A stretch of 40,213 nt of DNA from Thermoplasmata archaeon. Lineage in GTDB: Archaea > Thermoplasmatota > Thermoplasmata > Thermoplasmatales > ARK-15. The translations under genes and the position numbers were made by a program. Where the stretch lies: NCBI GenBank assembly GCA_023261755.1, contig JAGDXS010000037.1, forward strand, positions 1 to 40,213. Direction: 5' to 3'. The notes under the pieces were generated by a model. That model searched no databases. It was not told the origin of the DNA and worked only from the letters and a program-made list of their open reading frames with translations. This document shows positions 29,159-39,453 of the stretch, one piece after another (the first letter of the stretch is position 1; every line of letters starts with the position of its first letter).

Positions 29159-29458
29159 ATGATAATCGAGCAAATTCCCTTAAAAAATGAGGTTGCATTG
29201 GGCATTAAAATACAGCTGGACAAGGCACCATTAATCCTGATCAGGGCAAAAAATGGATACATAATGTGCGGATATTTAAACATGGATTCTGCAAACAAAT
29301 TAGGGGATATAGCAGGAAAAATAACTGGAGTAAATGATTTTCAGGAGATGCTTGAAAAGAAAGTTATAGAAATTTCTGAAAAGGCTAAGGAGCTCGGTAT
29401 TGAACCTGGAATAACAGGAAGGGAATTTCTTGATAAAATAGGTGATATTTATGAGTGA
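29159..29458 (+). CDS. DUF1805-family protein (YunC-like)
   Basis: A 99-residue protein of the DUF1805 family. The recognisable core is 'APLILIRAKNGYIMCGYLNMDSANKLGDIAGKITGVNDFQEML' (in pieces), with the conserved Gly-x-x-x-Cys-Gly-Tyr-Leu. No function is known for the family. It overlaps threonine ammonia-lyase by 8 nt, so the two are probably translated together, and its C-terminal 35 residues are helical and charged. Whether it modulates amino acid metabolism is only an inference from position. Confidence 0.85.
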   Translation: MIIEQIPLKNEVALGIKIQLDKAPLILIRAKNGYIMCGYLNMDSANKLGDIAGKITGVNDFQEMLEKKVIEISEKAKELGIEPGITGREFLDKIGDIYE

Positions 29459-30674
29459 ACAGTTTATGATTGGAATGACTGAAGTCATGGAAGCTGAAAA
29501 AATATTAAGGAATATTGTTAAAAGGACACCTGTTGAGCATTCAAGAATGTTTTCAGAAATGTCAGGCAATGATGTTTACCTTAAGTTAGAGAACCTTCAA
29601 ACAACTGGGTCATTCAAAATAAGAGGAGCATACAATAAGATTTACCATCTCTCTGAAGAGGAAAGGTCTAGGGGAGTAGTAGCATCAAGTGCTGGAAATC
29701 ATTCTCAAGGAGTAGCATATGCAGCTAAACTACTTGGTGTTAAAGCAACAATTTTTATGCCAGTGTTTACGCCTCCATCAAAGATTATAGCTACTAAATC
29801 CTATGGTGCAGAGGTACAGCTTTATGGTGAAACATATGATGATGCATATAAAAAGGCCATTGAATTTACTGAAAAGAACAATATGGTCTTTATTCATCCA
29901 TTCAATGATCCTTATGTTATTGCAGGCCAAGCAACGATTGGTCTTGAAATCTTTGAGCAAATTAAGGATATAGATGCAGTGGTAGTTCCAATCGGTGGAG
30001 GAGGATTGATTTCAGGTATTGCATTTGCGCTTAAATCATTGAACCATAATATCAAGATAATAGGTGTAGAGGCTGAAGGAGCCCAATCTATGAAAATATC
30101 TGTGGAGAAGGGTGAAATTGTTCCATTGGTAAATTTAGATACAATTGCAGATGGTATTGCTGTTAAAATACCAGGACCATTAACATTTGATATGGTGAAA
30201 GTTTACGTAGATGATCTTATAACAGTTACAGATGATGAAATAGCAAAGGCCATGTACCTTCTCTTGACAAGGAATAAAATTGTTGCAGAGCCTGCAGGTG
30301 CAGTATCCCTGGCTGCTATCCTTTCAGGAAAAATAAAAATGAAAAATAAGAGAATTTGCGCGGTAATAAGCGGTGGTAACGTTGATTATAACCTTTTGAA
30401 TCAGATTACTCAGAAAGGTCTCGTGGATGAAAAGCTTATGGTAAAGGTATCTGTAGTAATTCCAGATAAACCAGGTTCATTGAAGAAGATTCTTAATTAT
30501 CTATCAGAAAGGCAAATAAATGTACAGGACATAGATGTGGAAAGAATAGAAAAAGATATTCCAGCAGGCATGGCAAAGATTATCATTACAGTTCAAACTA
30601 TAGGCATAGAGAATATTAAAGCCATAGAAGAATTCTTGAAGAAAGAGAAAATTGAATACAAACTTATGACATAA
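29451..30674 (+). CDS. ilvA: Threonine ammonia-lyase with ACT domain
   Basis: A 407-residue PLP enzyme that deaminates threonine (and serine) to 2-oxobutanoate and ammonia. The PLP lysine is Lys56 in 'TTGSFKIRGAYNK', followed by 'SSAGNHSQGVAYAA', the PLP phosphate loop 'PIGGGGLISGIA' and a C-terminal ACT domain from about residue 330 ('VSVVIPDKPGSLKKILNYL'). This short, single-ACT form resembles catabolic/archaeal enzymes rather than the long biosynthetic IlvA with two ACT-like domains. A GGTGAT site sets the ATG at 29451; a GTG nine bases upstream is part of it. 2-Oxobutanoate can feed isoleucine synthesis. Confidence 0.92.
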   Translation: MSEQFMIGMTEVMEAEKILRNIVKRTPVEHSRMFSEMSGNDVYLKLENLQTTGSFKIRGAYNKIYHLSEEERSRGVVASSAGNHSQGVAYAAKLLGVKATIFMPVFTPPSKIIATKSYGAEVQLYGETYDDAYKKAIEFTEKNNMVFIHPFNDPYVIAGQATIGLEIFEQIKDIDAVVVPIGGGGLISGIAFALKSLNHNIKIIGVEAEGAQSMKISVEKGEIVPLVNLDTIADGIAVKIPGPLTFDMVKVYVDDLITVTDDEIAKAMYLLLTRNKIVAEPAGAVSLAAILSGKIKMKNKRICAVISGGNVDYNLLNQITQKGLVDEKLMVKVSVVIPDKPGSLKKILNYLSERQINVQDIDVERIEKDIPAGMAKIIITVQTIGIENIKAIEEFLKKEKIEYKLMT

Positions 30675-30729
30675 AATTTTTAATTTTTTTTAATTTTAAA
30701 TTAAAATATTGCAAAATTTGATAGTAAAC

Positions 30730-31833
30730 ATGATAAAAAAATCGCTTTTAATAGCTCATGTAGCTCTTTTCTCATTCGGTTATAGTTTCGCAGTATTTGC
30801 ACTACCTCCATTTTTTACATCACTAGGATCTGATCAACTATTTCTTGGAGAGTATGGATTTTTATTAATGCTTCCTAATGTTGTACTTCCATTGATATTT
30901 TCAAAATTAAAAAATTTAAACTTAACTTCTAAATTGATCATACTTTCTACAATAATAGTTGACATTTCAATAATATTTTTTACATTTGAAAGATCATTCT
31001 CCATTTATTTATTTTTAGTACTTGTTTTAGGCATTGGCCAATTTATGTGGTGGATAACAACAGAAATATTTTTTACAGGTATATCCAGGGGAACAAATTT
31101 AATAAATGTTTACAGCATTGTATGGGGCGCATCCTATCTAATTTCACCAATATTTGCAGGTTATTTCATCCCTCTTTTTGGTTATCCCATAATTTTTGTA
31201 TTATCTTTCATTTTTATTTTTATTTCTATCATATTGTTTGTTGGTTCCATTAAAAATGAAAAATTTAATTCTGTTGTAAATCAAATACAAAAACACGGTA
31301 ACAAAATTTTAATTGAATCTTTTTTTCCTAGTTTTGTTACAGGTTTATCCATAGGATTACTATCTTCCATTTTTCCTGGATACGTTCTTAAAAGCGGAAT
31401 AAATGTTTTAGGTCTTGGTGTTTTAACTGCGATGATGTCTTTAGCTAGATTAATTGGTTTTTTATATTTAATTAATAAATTGCAATTGCAAAAATTAAAG
31501 TTTCTCATGGATATTTCATTTATTCTTCTTTTAATTATAATAATACCAGCGTTTACAATGAACTATTATGCTTTATTAGTCATGATGCTGGTCATAGGAT
31601 TCAGTTCATCATTAGGTATTTCAGCACCTTTAATATATATTTCAAATAATGAGGATGCGAACATTTCCAGAAATATAGCAGTTTATGAATTTTCATTTGG
31701 AATAAGCGTTTCAGCGTTTGCATTAATTTTTGGATATGTATCACAGGATATTGGCATTAGAATTCCATACATTATTGATTTCATCATAACATTTGCATTA
31801 TCTATATTTTTTATTTTGAAAAAATATAAATAG
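30730..31833 (+). CDS. MFS-type transporter
   Basis: A 367-residue membrane protein of about eleven to twelve hydrophobic helices, organised as two halves around a basic loop ('NQIQKHGNKI'), typical of the major facilitator superfamily. Substrate unknown. An upstream TTG at 30709 would extend into the T-rich leader; ATG 30730 is preferred. It ends 20 nt before the ChrB-domain gene, whose own TATA box lies inside this gene's 3' end. It is in the right place to import substrates for the amino-acid-racemising cassette that follows, but that is only positional evidence. Confidence 0.8.
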   Translation: MIKKSLLIAHVALFSFGYSFAVFALPPFFTSLGSDQLFLGEYGFLLMLPNVVLPLIFSKLKNLNLTSKLIILSTIIVDISIIFFTFERSFSIYLFLVLVLGIGQFMWWITTEIFFTGISRGTNLINVYSIVWGASYLISPIFAGYFIPLFGYPIIFVLSFIFIFISIILFVGSIKNEKFNSVVNQIQKHGNKILIESFFPSFVTGLSIGLLSSIFPGYVLKSGINVLGLGVLTAMMSLARLIGFLYLINKLQLQKLKFLMDISFILLLIIIIPAFTMNYYALLVMMLVIGFSSSLGISAPLIYISNNEDANISRNIAVYEFSFGISVSAFALIFGYVSQDIGIRIPYIIDFIITFALSIFFILKKYK

Positions 31834-31853: not shown

Positions 31854-32309
31854 ATGAGATGGATTACCAGAGAAAGGGCAATGGTGGATAGAATTGCCTG
31901 CCCATGGTTGATTAAAAATTTCATAGACCCAAATGCTGAATTTATTTTTGTTCCAGCGCAAGATGTTCTTAAAAAGGCAAAGGAATTGAATGCAATACCA
32001 TTTGATGTTGATAATGCTGAACTTACACATTATTTCGAAGGTAACGAAGAGTATGTAAGCTTCGATGCTTTAATAAAAAAATACAACTTAAAGGACCCTG
32101 CCCTCTTAGAATTAGCCAAAATTGTAAGAGGTGCAGATGCAAAAATTGATAATGCACCATTTGAGAGTTACGGTTTGAAAGCGATAGCTCAGGGATTTAG
32201 AATAATATCAAGAGATGATTATGAGAACATGAAATTACAATTTCCTGTATATGATGCACTTTATGCATTCTGTAGGGTAAAAATAAATGAAAGAAATAAA
32301 AGTTTATAA
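31854..32309 (+). CDS. ChrB C-terminal-domain protein
   Basis: A 151-residue protein made only of the domain found at the C-terminus of chromate-resistance protein ChrB. The family signature is clear: 'WITRERAMVDRIACPWLIKNFIDPNAEFIFVP' (in part), 'AIPFDVDNAELTHYFEGN' and 'CRVKIN' near the end. In full-length ChrB this region follows a regulatory part; stand-alone versions have no established function, and no chrA chromate transporter is here. Its last 23 nt overlap the racemase start, so it belongs to the amino-acid operon. A link to amino acid metabolism rather than chromate is suggested by context. Confidence 0.85.
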   Translation: MRWITRERAMVDRIACPWLIKNFIDPNAEFIFVPAQDVLKKAKELNAIPFDVDNAELTHYFEGNEEYVSFDALIKKYNLKDPALLELAKIVRGADAKIDNAPFESYGLKAIAQGFRIISRDDYENMKLQFPVYDALYAFCRVKINERNKSL

Positions 32310-33372
32310 TGTTAATTTACCCCTTAAAGTACCATTTGAAACGAGTTTTGGCATACAATATTCAAGAAATGCATTAATTATAGAATATTCTGATGTATAT
32401 AATGCTTATGGGGAAAGCGTCACAGATGATGTTCCTGGTTATAGTTATGAAGATAACATAACAGCTTTACATGTGATTAAGGATTATCTTATTGAAATAT
32501 TAAAGGAAACATTAGATCCTAGTGAATTTGTTGAAAAGGCAAAGAAGATTAAGGGCCATAATATGGCAAAATCTGCTATTGAAACCATGTTATGGGATCT
32601 TGAATCAAAGAAAAAAGGAATATCTTTAAAGGATCTAATAGGAGGTGAAAAAGAAAAAATAGAGAGTGGTATTAGTATTGGCATTCTTCCAATGGAAAAA
32701 TTAATTGATACTGTAAAAAAATCTATCGATTTGGGTTATAAAAGAATCAAATTAAAAATAAAGCCTGGATGGGATATTGAAGTTCTTAGAGAAATAAGAA
32801 TGAATTTTGGTGATATTCCTCTAACAGTAGATGCAAATCAAGCATATGAGGGAAAAGAAAACAAAGTATTGGAATTGGACAAATTTGAATTATTGATGAT
32901 AGAACAGCCTCTTGCAGAAAATAATATGGTAGGTTTATCAAGGATTCAGAAAAAATTATCAACACCAATATGTCTTGATGAATCTATCCATAGCGTTAAA
33001 GATGCAAAAACAATGTTAGAACTTGATGCTGGGAGAATAATAAACTTGAAAATTGGTCGTGTGGGCGGTTTGAAAGAATCATTGGAAATTGTAAATTTCT
33101 GTGGAAATAACAAAATACCATTATGGTGCGGAGGTATGCTGGAAACTGGTATTGGGAGAGCATTTAATGTAATTTTGCAATCTAGGATGGAATTTAACAT
33201 GCCTGGAGATACAAGTCCTAGCGACAGGTATTTTGAGAAAGATATAATTAAGAAGCCATTCACAATGGATAAAGGTTATATTGAAGTGCCAAATGGAAAT
33301 GGAATAGGTGTCGAGCCAGATTTGGAATTTATCAAAAAGGTTGGTAAAATAATATTTCAGCAAAGGTTATAG
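32287..33372 (+). CDS. Enolase-superfamily N-acylamino-acid racemase / o-succinylbenzoate synthase
   Basis: A 361-residue member of the NSAR/OSBS branch of the enolase superfamily. The catalytic Lys pair is in 'RIKLKIKPGWDIE' (Lys155, Lys157) and 'NLKIGRVGGL' (Lys255), and the Mg ligands are Asp182 ('VDANQ'), Glu206 ('IEQPL') and Asp231 ('LDES'). These match Lys163/263 and Asp189/Glu214/Asp239 of the Amycolatopsis racemase. Arg258, three residues after the second Lys, is the position reported as needed for racemase activity. Flanking M20 deacylase and GNAT genes favour N-succinylamino acid racemisation over menaquinone synthesis; no men gene is nearby. Dipeptide epimerase is the less likely alternative. 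Confidence 0.88.
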   Translation: MKEIKVYNVNLPLKVPFETSFGIQYSRNALIIEYSDVYNAYGESVTDDVPGYSYEDNITALHVIKDYLIEILKETLDPSEFVEKAKKIKGHNMAKSAIETMLWDLESKKKGISLKDLIGGEKEKIESGISIGILPMEKLIDTVKKSIDLGYKRIKLKIKPGWDIEVLREIRMNFGDIPLTVDANQAYEGKENKVLELDKFELLMIEQPLAENNMVGLSRIQKKLSTPICLDESIHSVKDAKTMLELDAGRIINLKIGRVGGLKESLEIVNFCGNNKIPLWCGGMLETGIGRAFNVILQSRMEFNMPGDTSPSDRYFEKDIIKKPFTMDKGYIEVPNGNGIGVEPDLEFIKKVGKIIFQQRL

Positions 33373-33380
33373 GACCAAAA

Positions 33381-34508
33381 ATGAATGAAAGTCTTTTGGA
33401 ACTTACATTGGAAATAATAAAAGCGAAGAGCGAGAATCCACCCGGTAACGAGAGTGAAGTCGCAGATATAATTAAGAGTCGGTTAAAAAATTATCTAAAT
33501 TTTAAAGAAATTATAACTGGCAAGGATAGAATAAATTTAATTTTTGGTGAAGGTTTAGATTTAGTTTTCAATGGTCATATGGACACAGTTCCAATTGGAA
33601 ATGGGTGGAATCATAATCCATATGGTGAATATACTGAGGGTAAAATTTATGGTAGAGGCGCTTCAGACATGAAGGGTGCATTGTCATCCTTAATAATTTC
33701 AATTGAAGATATTGTTGACAATGGCCAGAAGGATTTATTGAAAAAATGCAAATTTGCATTTGTTGCGGATGAAGAAGCAGGTAGTAAATATGGAACAAAA
33801 GCAATTTTAAATGAAATTAAAGGTAAATATGGTATTGTAATGGAAGGATCAGTATTAAATGAAAAAATATACATACGGCCTGGTGTGAGGGGTTCATTGT
33901 GGCTTAAAATAGTTTCATATGGTAAAAGTGCACATTCAAGCAATCCTGAATCTGGAATAAATGCAGTTATGAATCTTGCTGAAATATTGATTGGATTAAA
34001 AAATATGAAATTAAATTACAAAAAGCATCCATATCTACCAGATCCAACAATGTCATTGGGAACAACAATAAGGGGTGGTGAAAAAATAAATGTTATTCCT
34101 GATTATGCCGAGGCAACTATTGACATAAGAACGATTACAGGGATGGATAATAATGAAATTTTAAGTGAAATAGAAAATAGAATAAAAAGATTGAAAAACA
34201 TTAATGATTCCATAGATTTTGAAATACTAAAAATTGAAGAAAATCCAGCGGCAGAAATTTCACTAACATCTGAGATTATAAAAAAGGCCAAGAAGGTTAT
34301 TAATGAAGTAGCAGGATATTCACCAGGCATAATGGGTGGTACAGGATCGAATGATGCATCACATATGATTTTGAATGGTACTGAAACTTTGGTTTTGGGA
34401 CCTGGAGATTTTGTTAATGATCACGCCCATGGAAAAGATGAATTTATAACTCTAGAAAGACTTGAAAAATTTGTTAAAATATATGGAGGCTTGATAAAAT
34501 ATGCCTGA
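33381..34508 (+). CDS. M20-family deacylase (ArgE/DapE-like)
   Basis: A 375-residue zinc-dependent amidohydrolase of the ArgE/DapE/CPG2 family. Ligands and catalytic residues visible are His66 and catalytic Asp68 ('FNGHMDTVP'), bridging Asp96 ('GRGASDMKGA'), catalytic Glu131 and ligand Glu132 ('VADEEAGSKYG'), and the C-terminal His in 'DHAHGKDEF'. The family removes acyl groups such as succinyl or acetyl from amino acids. Placed between an N-acylamino-acid racemase and a GNAT acyltransferase, it most likely hydrolyses an N-succinyl-L-amino acid. It starts 8 nt after the racemase stop, and overlaps the GNAT gene by 8 nt. Confidence 0.9.
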   Translation: MNESLLELTLEIIKAKSENPPGNESEVADIIKSRLKNYLNFKEIITGKDRINLIFGEGLDLVFNGHMDTVPIGNGWNHNPYGEYTEGKIYGRGASDMKGALSSLIISIEDIVDNGQKDLLKKCKFAFVADEEAGSKYGTKAILNEIKGKYGIVMEGSVLNEKIYIRPGVRGSLWLKIVSYGKSAHSSNPESGINAVMNLAEILIGLKNMKLNYKKHPYLPDPTMSLGTTIRGGEKINVIPDYAEATIDIRTITGMDNNEILSEIENRIKRLKNINDSIDFEILKIEENPAAEISLTSEIIKKAKKVINEVAGYSPGIMGGTGSNDASHMILNGTETLVLGPGDFVNDHAHGKDEFITLERLEKFVKIYGGLIKYA

Positions 34509-35337
34509 AATATTACCTGCAAAAAGTCCAGATGATATAAAAAAAGGAGTGGAAGTTATAAAAGATGCATGGGGCGCAAATGATCTTACAACAATTATGA
34601 AGGACTTTTTAACAGGTCTAAGATCAAATGGTGGTTTAGTTCTTCTTGCATATGAGGGGGATGATATAATTGGCATATCATTTGCCTTCATAGGATACAA
34701 AAAAAATCAAATATATCTATATTCACATATGACGGGTGTGAAAAAGAAATATAAGTATACAGGTTTAGGTTTAGAATTGAAAAAGGCACAAAGATTATGG
34801 GCAATAGATCATAATTTCAATTTAATTTCCTGGACTTTTGATCCCCTACAGGGATTAAATTCTAATTTCAATCTTAGAAAGTTAGGCGCAATAGCAAGAA
34901 CATATGATAGGAACCATTATGGAACAATGGTAGATTCTATTAATTTTGGTCTTAGGTCAGATAGAGTAGTCGCAGAGTGGTGCATTAAATCTGATCATGT
35001 AATTAAAAGATTGAATGGAATATATAATAACTATAAAGAGCTTGAAGATGCCATAATTACAGAAAAGAAGGATGAGTATTACATTGTAAAAGAAATTAGA
35101 AAAAATATTGATTCAGATACATTTAGAATTGAAATACCCACGGATGTTACAAGAATAAAAAGTAAAAATCTTGAAGATGCCATTTTATGGAGAAATTATA
35201 CAGCTGAAATTTACGAACATTATTTTAGCAGAGGTTATGCTCTCGTTGATTTTTATAGATCAGATTCAAAGAATTATCAGATAATTTCAAAAAAATTGCC
35301 TGAAGGATGCATGAAAGAAAACATATTTCAAGAATAG
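34501..35337 (+). CDS. GNAT acyltransferase (COG3375-like), probable amino acid N-succinyltransferase
   Basis: A 278-residue GNAT-fold protein, longer than simple acetyltransferases. The acyl-CoA region is in 'SHMTGVKKKYKYTGLGLELKKAQR' (in part), where the usual RxxGxG/A loop is KYTGLGLEL. It is followed by 'SWTFDPLQGLNSNFNLRKLGAIARTY' and 'YGTMVDSINFGLRSDRVVAEW' (in parts), which are features of the predicted acetyltransferases of COG3375. In Geobacillus a GNAT protein next to an NSAR and an M20 enzyme succinylates D-amino acids. The same trio occurs here, so a D-amino acid N-succinyltransferase is the leading prediction. It ends overlapping the convergent exonuclease gene by 10 nt. Confidence 0.83.
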   Translation: MPEILPAKSPDDIKKGVEVIKDAWGANDLTTIMKDFLTGLRSNGGLVLLAYEGDDIIGISFAFIGYKKNQIYLYSHMTGVKKKYKYTGLGLELKKAQRLWAIDHNFNLISWTFDPLQGLNSNFNLRKLGAIARTYDRNHYGTMVDSINFGLRSDRVVAEWCIKSDHVIKRLNGIYNNYKELEDAIITEKKDEYYIVKEIRKNIDSDTFRIEIPTDVTRIKSKNLEDAILWRNYTAEIYEHYFSRGYALVDFYRSDSKNYQIISKKLPEGCMKENIFQE

Positions 35338-36089: not shown

Positions 36090-36127
36090 TTATTAATTCA
36101 AATCATTTTAACCTTTTGCCTGAAATA

Positions 36128-37297
36128 ATGAAATCATTAAAGATAGACAGGGTACTTATAGATACAACAATAGCACATTTCGTTAATGATGGTTTATCCT
36201 ATTTACCATATTATTTAATTGTTTTAATTAAAGAGGGTTACAAATTAACCTTTTTTCAAAATTCATTGATATTGATGGTCTATTATTTGGGGGGAGCTGT
36301 CATATCACCCATAATGGGTAGATATATTGATAATGTAAAGAAAAAAGGTTTTATGATGGGAATTGGATTATTCCTATTCAGCATATCCTTTATTCTTTTG
36401 GCAATCCCATATCCTAAGGGTCTGTCAATTTATTGCTTTATGGCAGGAATGTTTGTAATAAGTATTTTTTCCACAATATACCATCCTATAGGTTCAATGA
36501 TACTCAATAGAAAATACAGGGAAAATGCTGGTACGGCTCTAGGCATAAATGGCATAGGTGGAGGAATAGGAAGAGCAGTATTTCCAGGAATTTTTCTATT
36601 ATTTAATGGAATTTTTAAGGATTTTTCTATTTCACTAATTTTCTTAACAATAATTATGGCAATTCTAGGTTTATATGTTGCATTAGATTTAAGAAAGGAA
36701 GAATTCTTTGTTGAACAGAAAAAGAAAAATTCACTTTTTAAATTTTCATTACCAATTACAATATTGTTGATTGCCACAATTTTAAGAACAATGGCAATAT
36801 CAGGTGGAAGTGCAATGCTTCCTAGTTACATGAACATTACTTTAGGTTTTAATTCAACTATTGTTGGAATAATTGTAGTTTTGGCTTATACATCAGCCAT
36901 TTTCGGACAACCATTTTTAGGTTATCTTTCTGATAAATTTAGCAGAACCCTAATACTAATTTTAACATCAGCTCTATACGGTATATTAATAATAATTTTA
37001 ATGTTCCTTCAAAATATTTTAACGGTTTCTATAGTCTATATCCTTTCATATTTTGTTGGTCTTTCAAATTTTCCTCTTCTGATGGCTTTGGTGGGTAGGA
37101 TTTCTAAAGATTCTGATCTTGCCGAAAATTCTGCAATTATTTTTGGCCTGGGTGGTGGGATAGGAGGCGCTTTAGGAACATTTTTAATAGGTTTTATGGG
37201 CCAGGTTATCAATACACATATTTCTTTCATCATTATGGGCATAGTTTCAATTGTGTCTGCAATTATCATTCTGTTCATTCCATTAAATAAAAAATAA
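36128..37297 (+). CDS. MFS transporter (fosmidomycin-resistance-protein-like)
   Basis: A 389-residue major facilitator with about twelve helices. The N-terminus 'IDTTIAHFVNDGLSYLPYYLIVLIK' (in part) contains the His-Phe-x-Asn/x-Asp-Gly signature of the Fsr branch, and 'NAGTALGINGIGGGIGRAVFPGIFL' (in part) is the glycine-rich TM5. Members export drugs or small metabolites or import sugars; the substrate is unknown. The TTG at 36116 is in frame, but ATG 36128 aligns better. Not obviously cotranscribed with mtnP, which has its own promoter. Confidence 0.85.
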   Translation: MKSLKIDRVLIDTTIAHFVNDGLSYLPYYLIVLIKEGYKLTFFQNSLILMVYYLGGAVISPIMGRYIDNVKKKGFMMGIGLFLFSISFILLAIPYPKGLSIYCFMAGMFVISIFSTIYHPIGSMILNRKYRENAGTALGINGIGGGIGRAVFPGIFLLFNGIFKDFSISLIFLTIIMAILGLYVALDLRKEEFFVEQKKKNSLFKFSLPITILLIATILRTMAISGGSAMLPSYMNITLGFNSTIVGIIVVLAYTSAIFGQPFLGYLSDKFSRTLILILTSALYGILIIILMFLQNILTVSIVYILSYFVGLSNFPLLMALVGRISKDSDLAENSAIIFGLGGGIGGALGTFLIGFMGQVINTHISFIIMGIVSIVSAIIILFIPLNKK

Positions 37298-37302
37298 TTT
37301 TT

Positions 37303-37337
37303 AAATGTAAAAAAATAATATATATTAATTTACATTT
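37303..37337 (+). promoter_or_regulatory. Inverted repeat flanking the mtnP TATA box
   Basis: AAATGTAAA (37303-37311) and TTTACATTT (37329-37337) are perfect 9-bp inverted copies with a 17-nt spacer. The spacer contains the TATA element (AATATATATTA, about 37317-37327) that lies 20-27 nt before the mtnP ATG at 37344. A dimeric regulator bound to both arms would enclose the TBP site. Confidence 0.5.
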
Positions 37338-37343
37338 ACATAT

Positions 37344-38120
37344 ATGGAAACTGAAATAGCCGTAATAGGTGGTTCTGGAATAGTATCAATTTTCAATGAG
37401 AAGGAAAAAATAGATTTGCACACACCCTATGGAAGCCCGTCCGATTCAATTTCACTGGGTGAAATATCTGGTGTTAAAATAGCATTTCTCCAAAGGCATG
37501 GAAAAGGGCATAAGATACCTCCGCATAAAGTTAACTACAGAGCGAACATATATGCTCTTCATGAAATAGGAGTTAAAAAAATTATTAGTGTAAGTGCTGT
37601 TGGATCACTTCAGGAAAAAATAAAACCTGGTGATCTTGCTTTAGTAAATCAATTTATTGACTTTACAAAAACTAGGCAATACACATTTTATGATGGGCCA
37701 AAAGTGGTTCACATTTCAATGGCAGACCCATTTTCAGAAGATATGAATAATATATTGTACAAAAAGGCTACTGAATTAAAGTACCATATCCATAAAAATG
37801 TTACATATGTTTGTATTGAGGGGCCAAGGTTTTCAACAAGGGCTGAATCAAGAATGTTCAGAAATTTTGCAGATATTATAGGAATGACCTTAGTTCCAGA
37901 AATAAATCTTGCAAGGGAATTGGGTATGTGTTATAGTACAATTGCCACAATTACAGATTATGATGTTTGGGCAGAAAAGCCTGTTACTGCAGATGAGGTA
38001 GTTAGAGTAATGTCAGAGAATGAATTCAAGGTAAAAGAATTATTAAAAGTATCAATGAAAGATATTGAAAATATGAACGCTGAAAAATGCAAAAAGGTTT
38101 TAGAGGAAGCTGGATTATAA
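37344..38120 (+). CDS. mtnP: S-methyl-5'-thioadenosine phosphorylase
   Basis: A 258-residue MTA/purine nucleoside phosphorylase (PNP/MTAP family) that cleaves 5'-methylthioadenosine with phosphate to adenine and methylthioribose-1-phosphate. Family motifs are '[13 protein letters not shown]', the phosphate/substrate loop '[20 protein letters not shown]' (written as 20 residues), '[15 protein letters not shown]' and '[18 protein letters not shown]'. Its product is the substrate of MtnA (6715-7716), so both steps are in the window although 30 kb apart. Polyamine synthesis is a likely source of MTA. The start is leaderless by TATA position. Confidence 0.93.
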
Positions 38121-38148
38121 AAAACGAAATTCGAAAAATTTTTTCAAT

Positions 38149-38189
38149 ATTTTTAATATTCAGAGACAGAAAATGAAAATATTAAAAAT
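38149..38189. repeat. AT-only inverted repeat downstream of mtnP
   Basis: ATTTTTAATATT (38149-38160) and AATATTAAAAAT (38178-38189) are perfect 12-bp inverted copies around a 17-nt loop with more G (CAGAGACAG...). It starts 28 nt after the mtnP stop and 80 nt before the next start, so it could end the mtnP transcript or bind a regulator of the flavoprotein gene. Pairs are only A:T. Confidence 0.5.
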
Positions 38190-38227
38190 TTATTTGTAAT
38201 TATATGAACAAATTAAAACAAAAAATA

Positions 38228-38268
38228 TTTTTATAAATGAAATCATTATACCTAATGGAGTGATATCC
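38228..38268 (+). promoter_or_regulatory. TATA box and RBS of the SQR-like gene
   Basis: TTTTTATAAAT (38228-38238) is a TATA box; transcription would start near 38258. GGAGTGAT (38257-38264), directly before ATG 38269, is a good ribosome-binding site, so this message has a very short leader. The in-frame GTG at 38260 lies inside that site and is rejected as start. Confidence 0.55.
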
Positions 38269-39453
38269 ATGAAAAAGGTGTTGATTATTGGAGCAGGTGG
38301 CGGAGGCTTAATATTGGCCAATTCATTGGACACAGATAAATATGATGTTACTTTGATAGACAGGGATATTTATCATTATTATCAGCCTTGGTTTCTATAT
38401 ATGGCCTTTAATGGATCAAAAAGGAAGATTTGGAGAAAAATAGATAGTTTGATTAAACCTGGTATAACCTTTAAGAATGAGGAAGTAACTGAAATAGATC
38501 TGGATAATAGAGCTGTTAAAACAAATAAGGATAATCATACATATGATTATCTAATAATAGGTACAGGTACGAATCCTGACCCATCTGTCATTCCAGGTCT
38601 TGAAGAAATAAATAATGAATATGGTAACTATCATAGTTCTGTGGAAAATGCAAATAAACTCTGGAATAAAATAAAAGATTTTAAGAGCGGAACTGCAGTT
38701 TTAGTTCAGGCATCACCAACCTGTAAATGCCCACCCTCCCCAGTGGAAGGCATGCTCCTTCTAGAGGAATATTTGAATAAAAACGGTCTTAAGGAAAAAA
38801 CTAAACTTGTATTTGCAACTCCCTACCCTAGACCATATCCTGCTGAGCCTATGAATAGGATCGTGGAACCAATAATGAAGGAGAGGGGAATAGATTTAAT
38901 TACATTCTTTAACATGGAGAGCGTAGATCCTAAAAATAAGGTTATAAATTCCATGGAAGGGGATTCAATTAATTATGATTTACCAATTATAATACCTCCA
39001 TGCCGTGGTGCAAAAATCAATTATAAGCAGGAAAATGTAATAGATGATGATAGATTCATTAAAGCTGATAAGTACACAATGAAAATATTAGGATACGACG
39101 ATGCTTTTGCAATAGGAGATTGCAACAATCTTCCAACTTCTAAGAGCGGTGTTACGGCTCATCTCCAGGCAAAAGTTGTAGCAGATATTATAGATGGCAA
39201 GGATTCAAAATTCGATGGAAGAATAAATTGCCCTTTTGATATGGCCTACGGAAAAGGAACATTTGTAATTGCAGATTATAACCATCCAGTTGTTCCTTAC
39301 CCACCTACCGAGTTCAAACATTTCATGAAAATATCTATGGCGGATATATATTGGTGGACTTTGAGAGGTTATGTGGATTTTGTCTTTGATATTTTCTTTG
39401 AATACACAAAACCTGAAAAATTAATTAAAATGTATCAGGCCTCAGAGGCCTGA
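38269..39453 (+). CDS. sqr: Sulfide:quinone oxidoreductase-like flavoprotein
   Basis: A 394-residue FAD protein of the SQR / type II NADH dehydrogenase family. It has the FAD loop 'VLIIGAGGGGLILAN', 'PWFLYMAFNG' (SQR-like), 'YDYLIIGTGTNPDPSVIPGLEE' (in part), 'VLVQASPTCKCPPSPVEGML' and 'DDAFAIGDCNNLPTSKSG'. Cys152 or Cys154 and Cys321 are candidates for the redox pair that bridges sulfide sulfur in known SQRs; Cys245 and Cys285 are also present. The C-terminus (about 355-380) is rich in Trp, Tyr and Phe and probably anchors the enzyme to the membrane. It would oxidise sulfide and reduce quinone; a different donor is possible. Convergent with the DUF1641-like gene. Confidence 0.85.
   Translation: MKKVLIIGAGGGGLILANSLDTDKYDVTLIDRDIYHYYQPWFLYMAFNGSKRKIWRKIDSLIKPGITFKNEEVTEIDLDNRAVKTNKDNHTYDYLIIGTGTNPDPSVIPGLEEINNEYGNYHSSVENANKLWNKIKDFKSGTAVLVQASPTCKCPPSPVEGMLLLEEYLNKNGLKEKTKLVFATPYPRPYPAEPMNRIVEPIMKERGIDLITFFNMESVDPKNKVINSMEGDSINYDLPIIIPPCRGAKINYKQENVIDDDRFIKADKYTMKILGYDDAFAIGDCNNLPTSKSGVTAHLQAKVVADIIDGKDSKFDGRINCPFDMAYGKGTFVIADYNHPVVPYPPTEFKHFMKISMADIYWWTLRGYVDFVFDIFFEYTKPEKLIKMYQASEA

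Follow-up and report, generated by a model that had tools for sequence, protein, structure and literature searches.

A three-gene locus in a Thermoplasmatales archaeon encodes a probable N-acylamino acid racemase pathway for D- to L-amino acid inversion

Do an enolase-superfamily racemase, a metallo-deacylase and an acyltransferase that are encoded side by side in a Thermoplasmatales archaeon, also a relative of Aciduliprofundum, form a single pathway, and if so, which one? The genes lie in a contig stretch of 40,213 nucleotides (the window), on the + strand and at the positions that a first-pass annotation had given them. The racemase gene (32287..33372, + strand) is followed after a spacing of 8 nt by an M20 gene (33381..34508, + strand), which in turn shares an 8-nt overlap with a GNAT gene (34501..35337, + strand). 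A further gene upstream (31854..32309, + strand) encodes a stand-alone ChrB C-terminal domain protein (PF09828, 151 bits), and its end overlaps the start of the racemase gene by 23 nt. The sister genome G001 carries no such gene upstream of its racemase, and the ChrB_C protein is probably merely co-transcribed with the trio; we assign it no role in the pathway.

The first protein is a racemase of the NSAR/OSBS subfamily, for which the automatic gene name menC is to be expected. It scores 339.2 bits against the NCBIfam model TIGR01928 (cut-off 200.65), a model that carries the NCBIfam name o-succinylbenzoate synthase, and 117 bits against the second-best NCBIfam model. Its closest relatives in the PDB are the NSAR/OSBS enzymes of Amycolatopsis and Deinococcus, with E-values of about 1e-82. 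Alignment places K155, K157, D182, E206, D231 and K255 at positions 161, 163, 189, 214, 239 and 263 of the Amycolatopsis NSAR; these are exactly the catalytic residues that had been named from the sequence alone, and the KxK, D, E, D, K catalytic and metal-binding set is invariant in 93 of 93 aligned family members. Arg258 occupies the position of Amycolatopsis Arg266, where all 93 members have arginine and the epimerase outgroup has lysine, and the protein bears a PGDTS loop (PGDTSPSD) with no DxD motif at that place. A phylogeny against the NSAR, OSBS and dipeptide-epimerase clades had been proposed as a check, and in the resulting tree the racemase groups on the NSAR/OSBS side, apart from the dipeptide epimerases. 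Within that side it diverges early and stands apart from the main clade of archaeal sequences. A single clade of the window racemase with that of G004, a genome of the same family, was rejected (AU p 0.007), which speaks against their joint inheritance. Since the window racemase branches deeply and apart from its G004 counterpart, its substrate may have diverged.

An alternative hypothesis is that the protein is a dipeptide epimerase and the M20 protein a dipeptidase, acting for example on peptidoglycan peptides. Some M20 enzymes are dipeptidases, and a two-lysine site is common to enolase-superfamily epimerases. However, the dipeptide-epimerase models return 101 and 81 bits against cut-offs of 500 and 343, far from the TIGR01928 score, and the arginine in place of lysine at position 258, the PGDTS loop and the lack of the DxD motif all argue against this assignment. 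Moreover, a separate epimerase-like paralogue that does have lysine at the Arg258 position and a DxD motif is encoded on contig C3 of the same genome, and a dipeptide epimerase would leave the GNAT partner unexplained. On the model scores and diagnostic residues we reject this function as extremely improbable. Is the racemase then a true o-succinylbenzoate synthase (MenC) serving menaquinone synthesis? The name of its top-scoring model favors this, as does the promiscuity of the NSAR/OSBS subfamily, in which the Amycolatopsis N-acylamino acid racemase has been re-assigned as an OSBS (PMC4215206). Against it, neither menD nor menB was found over cut-off in any of the 117 genomes of the order, including the window's own genome and Ferroplasma acidarmanus, in surveys whose controls gave the expected matches; the best menD match in the own genome reached a sub-cut-off 17.9 bits. 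The order has the futalosine-route genes mqnA/D in 85 of 117 genomes, and the own genome, which was searched by single families, gave no mqnA/D match. The neighbors of the racemase gene are moreover acyl-amino acid enzymes rather than men genes. On the menD, menB and mqn surveys taken together we reject MenC, a very improbable reading that stands close to refuted. The first-pass annotation had discounted both of these functions, and the scores, residues and gene surveys agree with it.

The second protein is an M20 metallo-deacylase of the ArgE/DapE-like type and a putative L-selective N-succinyl(acyl)amino acid deacylase. The metal site that had been described as complete is indeed so: both Pfam domains are over cut-off (PF01546, 118.6 bits; PF07687, 78 bits) and the motifs GHMD, SDMKG, DEE, MEGS and AHG are all present. 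The score against TIGR01910 (212 bits) falls just under the cut-off of 217.6. Its close orthologues are confined to two genomes of the family, G001 and G004, and there too they sit beside the GNAT gene. Most other racemase-adjacent M20 proteins in the order are M20D or CPG2-like; because the window protein comes from the ArgE/DapE branch instead, its acyl specificity could differ.

Assignment of the third protein relied on fold and neighborhood, as it matched no Pfam or NCBIfam model. A profile search against PDB sequences gave weak matches, and for this reason fold comparison was used. The AlphaFold2 model (pLDDT 94.7) retrieves GNAT enzymes with Foldseek (best E 8e-6), the match spanning about half of the protein length. 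Homologues of the protein are bacterial proteins annotated as GNAT that adjoin menC/NSAR and M20 genes in Priestia, Lysinibacillus and Deinococcus, and the WTxDP, YG and SDR/TDR blocks are common to the window protein and these NSAR-adjacent bacterial GNATs. The earlier identification as a GNAT acyltransferase is upheld by both lines of evidence, and the protein, possibly of the COG3375 type as first suggested, is a putative succinyl(acyl)-CoA:D-amino acid N-acyltransferase.

Are these genes coupled beyond this one locus? Of the order's 117 genomes, 63 encode both racemase and GNAT and 48 encode neither, while 4 have the racemase only and 2 the GNAT only (Fisher p 1.6e-25, a value that ignores shared ancestry). 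The genome collection was scanned for the GNAT with a closer sequence set, an alignment of 19 sequences being too diverse, and the racemase is encoded in 28 of 31 GNAT-bearing genomes in a set reached through named loci. Within the window's own family, G000, G001 and G004 encode all three genes, and G002 and G003 none of the three specific orthologues. At 39 of the 68 racemase loci in the order an M20 gene lies directly downstream on the same strand, and these racemase-adjacent M20 proteins belong to three M20 subfamilies. The GNAT gene lies within three genes of the racemase at 21 loci; one or both partners are near it at 48 loci and neither at 20. Racemase genes with GNAT and M20 neighbors are also found in other archaea and in bacteria, such that the recurrence suggested for a neighborhood survey extends past the order, and the 68-locus and 117-genome surveys lead us to reject chance adjacency of the trio. 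Treating the cassette as an isolated find was too narrow, since many members of the order carry the racemase/GNAT pair and more than one archaeal phylum outside it does too.

The reading that we favor, with a probability of roughly three in four, is that the trio constitutes an N-acylamino acid racemase pathway for D- to L-amino acid inversion. The first-pass annotation had proposed the same conversion, and the subfamily score, the men-gene survey, the neighborhoods and the near-perfect co-occurrence of NSAR and GNAT support it. Substrates, acyl group, stereoselectivity and direction are predicted by analogy with a bacterial pathway whose name appears in the title of a paper by Sakai et al. 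from 2006 (doi 10.1021/bi060230b, as cited in PMC8762209). The GNAT enzyme would use an acyl-CoA, most probably succinyl-CoA, to acylate the amino group of a D-amino acid. The racemase would then interconvert the N-succinyl-D- and N-succinyl-L-amino acid by a two-lysine 1,1-proton transfer, with Lys157 and Lys255 as the predicted catalytic pair and the metal on Asp182, Glu206 and Asp231. Hydrolysis of the L-isomer by the M20 enzyme would release L-amino acid and succinate and would draw the sequence forward.

How specific is this prediction with respect to the acyl group and the role? The same architecture could process an N-acyl group other than succinyl, for instance N-acetyl, and draw on a different source of substrate; the N-acetylamino acids could be made by the GNAT or come from N-terminally acetylated proteins. 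Acetyl-CoA is commonly used by GNAT enzymes, the ArgE/DapE-like branch includes both acetyl- and succinyl-removing enzymes, and three M20 subfamilies serve beside the racemase in the order. However, the enzymes characterised so far from the NSAR/OSBS type, to which the racemase belongs, act on N-succinyl substrates (PMC8142540), and the own genome encodes the alpha subunit of succinyl-CoA synthetase, which makes a non-succinyl group unlikely. It is more doubtful still that enzymes of N-acyl-amino acids serve a role other than inversion, such as D-amino acid production, detoxification via N-acylation or the making of a biosynthetic intermediate. The 20 of 68 NSAR loci with no adjacent M20 or GNAT would fit such a role, and the direction, the in vivo substrate and the D-amino acid source are predictions; yet a conserved set for acylating, racemising and deacylating agrees with the named pathway running one way, and the neighborhood survey found no further gene kept around the trio across families.

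If the trio does invert D-amino acids, what follows for the archaea that carry it? We tentatively hypothesize, as a possibility rather than an expectation, that a module for N-acylamino acid racemisation is ancient and general in archaea, with interchangeable M20 enzymes recruited several times, and that the divergent racemase and ArgE/DapE-type deacylase of this genus possibly serve another amino acid or acyl group. Archaea adapted to acid would host such a module, as would others (Thermoplasmatota, Thermoproteota, Marsarchaeota and Nitrososphaerota), and it would pair a conserved racemase with a GNAT that lies outside Pfam and NCBIfam coverage. Were this so, the menC annotations of these archaea would be wrong as a class. 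High transcription of menC in Ferroplasma has been taken as support for menaquinone electron shuttles (PMC6289977); because the cut-offs for menD and menB are passed nowhere in the order, however, 'menC' in these archaea should not be taken to mean menaquinone synthesis, and the Ferroplasma transcripts probably report a D- to L-amino acid pathway. The chemistry is already known, and it is the archaeal spread of the pathway genes that appears under-described: a search of titles and abstracts, which left subscription papers mostly outside and is weak evidence of absence, returned no archaeal N-succinylamino or N-acylamino acid racemase pathway. More than half of the order's genomes carry a gene pair, also found in other archaeal phyla, that thereby gains a testable function, and the question arises of why hot-acid archaea maintain a route for D-amino acid inversion. 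In hot acid, D-amino acids may stem from protein that has racemised and from the debris of bacterial walls.

Comparison with known systems places the locus among several relatives. The L-Ala-D/L-Glu (dipeptide) epimerase shares the enolase superfamily and the two-lysine 1,1-proton transfer, but its diagnostic residues are missing from the window racemase. The Amycolatopsis NSAR/OSBS (PDB 1sja and relatives) has the same catalytic lysines, metal ligands, arginine and PGDTS loop, whereas its biological role has been re-assigned to that of an OSBS, and in the archaea neither menD nor menB reaches its cut-off. Plasmid-borne trios of Lysinibacillus fusiformis, Priestia megaterium and Deinococcus ficus likewise hold M20, GNAT and menC/NSAR genes close together, although in another gene order and with an M20 protein that is amidohydrolase- or dipeptidase-like. 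Ferroplasma acidarmanus, Thermoplasma and others of the order have the same racemase and GNAT families in racemase-M20 and racemase-GNAT pairs, but their M20 proteins are CPG2-like or M20D and their GNAT is often divergent or distant in the genome. The bacterial N-succinylamino acid pathway reportedly converts D- to L-amino acids irreversibly with NSAR, GNAT and M20 enzymes. The window trio differs from it in its archaeal host, its ArgE/DapE-branch M20 and its deep-branching racemase, and resembles it in encoding an NSAR/OSBS racemase, a GNAT and an M20 enzyme together, with a GNAT homologous to those that adjoin menC/NSAR in Bacilli.

The window forms contig 15 of a genome of 1.22 Mb (93% complete), and the three genes lie on its forward strand where the first-pass annotation had placed them: a racemase at 32287-33372 (361 aa), an M20 deacylase at 33381-34508 (375 aa) and a GNAT acyltransferase at 34501-35337 (278 aa), with 8 nt separating racemase from M20 and an 8-nt overlap between M20 and GNAT. 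Upstream, a stand-alone ChrB C-terminal domain ORF (31854-32309; chromate-resistance regulator family) runs 23 nt into the start of the racemase gene, and the sister genome G001 has no such domain at that place. The region directly upstream, at 29442-31833, encodes a threonine ammonia-lyase with an ACT domain and then an MFS transporter, both in the direction of the trio; these could possibly share one transcript with it and be tied to amino acid breakdown, and their arrangement is not conserved in G001. The genes after the trio (36116-39453), namely an MFS transporter and, as judged by eye, an MTA/nucleoside phosphorylase-like and an FAD oxidoreductase-like gene, keep their order in G001 (locus L036).

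The racemase scores 339 bits against NCBIfam model TIGR01928 (cut-off 200.65), and its closest solved structures are N-succinylamino acid racemase/o-succinylbenzoate synthase (NSAR/OSBS) enzymes from Amycolatopsis and Deinococcus. The catalytic residues proposed from the sequence alone were exact: Lys155, Lys157, Asp182, Glu206, Asp231 and Lys255 align with positions 161, 163, 189, 214, 239 and 263 of Amycolatopsis NSAR. Could the protein instead be a dipeptide epimerase? Its scores against the NCBIfam models for such enzymes (101 and 81 bits) fall far below that for TIGR01928, and its PGDTS loop and Arg258, which matches Arg266 of the Amycolatopsis enzyme, likewise rule this out; an arginine at this position is invariant among 93 aligned relatives, and the epimerase outgroup carries a lysine and a DxD motif. 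A tree rooted on epimerase-like proteins groups the racemase with the NSAR/OSBS enzymes (100% support), on a deep branch with that of G001. The same genome holds an epimerase-like paralogue with a DxD motif on contig C3 (38926-39987; L101:5418-6482) that scores 268 bits against the L-Ala-D/L-Glu epimerase model, short of the cut-off of 500, and is followed by a gene resembling, by eye, a UbiX-type flavin prenyltransferase. Racemase-family genes of weak similarity also occur in family f2.

A second alternative is menaquinone synthesis, since such racemases are automatically named o-succinylbenzoate synthase (menC). In a Ferroplasma-like population, abundant transcripts of menC (5450 and 3110 TPM), menE and menG were interpreted as menaquinone synthesis for electron shuttling in extracellular electron transfer (PMC6289977). 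Against this reading, neither MenD nor MenB was found above its curated cut-off in any of the 117 genomes of the order, with controls such as E. coli and B. subtilis positive, and the futalosine-pathway family MqnA/MqnD is present in 85. The window's own genome, at 93% completeness, yields no mqnA/D match and only a sub-cut-off menD match of 17.9 bits, so that on present evidence its "menC" cannot serve the classical Men pathway. MqnA/MqnD is present in the other four genomes of the family (G001 to G004). Loss of menaquinone synthesis in this species would account for the difference, as would a position of its mqn genes within the missing 7%. Ferroplasma acidarmanus encodes mqnA/D in addition to both the racemase and its GNAT partner. 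For these reasons, the menC of the Ferroplasma-like population is, judged from gene content, more likely a racemase of the window type, and its menaquinone interpretation is likely an effect of misannotation.

The M20 protein contains both Pfam M20 domains, retains the metal-site motifs and, at 212 bits against a cut-off of 217.6, comes nearest to the ArgE/DapE deacylases. No Pfam or NCBIfam model recognises the GNAT protein; its assignment is upheld by a confident AlphaFold2 model (pLDDT 94.7) that resembles GNAT enzymes over about half its length and by relatives annotated as GNAT in plasmid records. In plasmid records of Priestia, Lysinibacillus and Deinococcus ficus, such relatives adjoin menC together with a gene for an M20 enzyme or an amidohydrolase, and in Sulfitobacter and Arthrobacter they adjoin menC; menC, transporter genes and GNAT are consecutive in D. 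radiodurans.

Across the order, the racemase occurs in 67 genomes and the GNAT in 65 (both, 63; racemase only, 4; GNAT only, 2; neither, 48; Fisher p 1.6e-25, shared ancestry ignored), and all four racemase-only genomes are at most 76% complete. Within five genera (g1, g16, g17, g22 and g32), some of whose genomes are incomplete, the two genes are present jointly in some species and missing jointly from others, and therefore seem to be gained and lost together. In the window's own family, all three genes, the M20 being the specific orthologue, are carried by three genomes (the window's own, G001 and G004), and none of them by G002 and G003. The neighbourhood survey proposed earlier covered 68 racemase loci of the order: in 39 of them the next gene downstream, on the same strand, is an M20 gene, and in 21 a GNAT lies within three genes; G004 pairs M20 with GNAT and has its racemase elsewhere, so that all three pairings recur. 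Three M20 subfamilies supply the adjacent genes, namely ArgE/DapE (in the window's own genus), the CPG2-like enzymes and the M20D amidohydrolases. Named GNAT loci include those of Aciduliprofundum sp. ARK-15, Ferroplasma acidarmanus Fer1, Thermoplasma, Acidiplasma, Candidatus Sysuiplasma, Marsarchaeota, Thaumarchaeota, Caldisphaera and other Thermoproteota, and of the bacterial Chloroflexi and Bacillaceae; 28 of the 31 genomes reached through them, mostly from other orders, encode a racemase of this protein family. At six Chloroflexota loci (L217, L221, L222, L227, L238 and L240), GNAT relatives lie near a CPG2-like M20 gene with no adjoining racemase, which is encoded elsewhere in most of these genomes and unmatched in two (G137 and G138). 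With an SH-aLRT of 99%, the window GNAT forms a group with two Thermoproteota sequences and its counterparts in G001 and G004. A clade of the window and G004 racemases is rejected (AU p 0.007), and the racemase of the window genus was thus probably replaced or inherited separately.

In the most likely scheme, the GNAT would N-acylate a D-amino acid with succinyl-CoA as the probable donor (the genome encodes succinyl-CoA synthetase alpha), the racemase would racemise the N-acyl amino acid by a two-lysine mechanism, and M20 hydrolysis of the L-form would drive the sequence. The analysis establishes what the genes are, their active sites and their coupling; acyl donor, stereoselectivity, direction and the physiological D-amino acid source are inferred from the bacterial pathway to which Sakai et al. 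2006 gave its name (doi 10.1021/bi060230b, a reference of PMC8762209). The first-pass annotation's observation and its interpretation as an irreversible D- to L-amino acid route hold, given the NSAR/OSBS-side racemase, the lack of any MenD or MenB above cut-off in the 117 genomes of the order and the recurrent GNAT/M20 coupling. The trio is an archaeal addition to the known bacterial pathway and not a novel type of system; what it adds is a wide archaeal distribution, exchange among M20 subfamilies and a correction of the menC reading.
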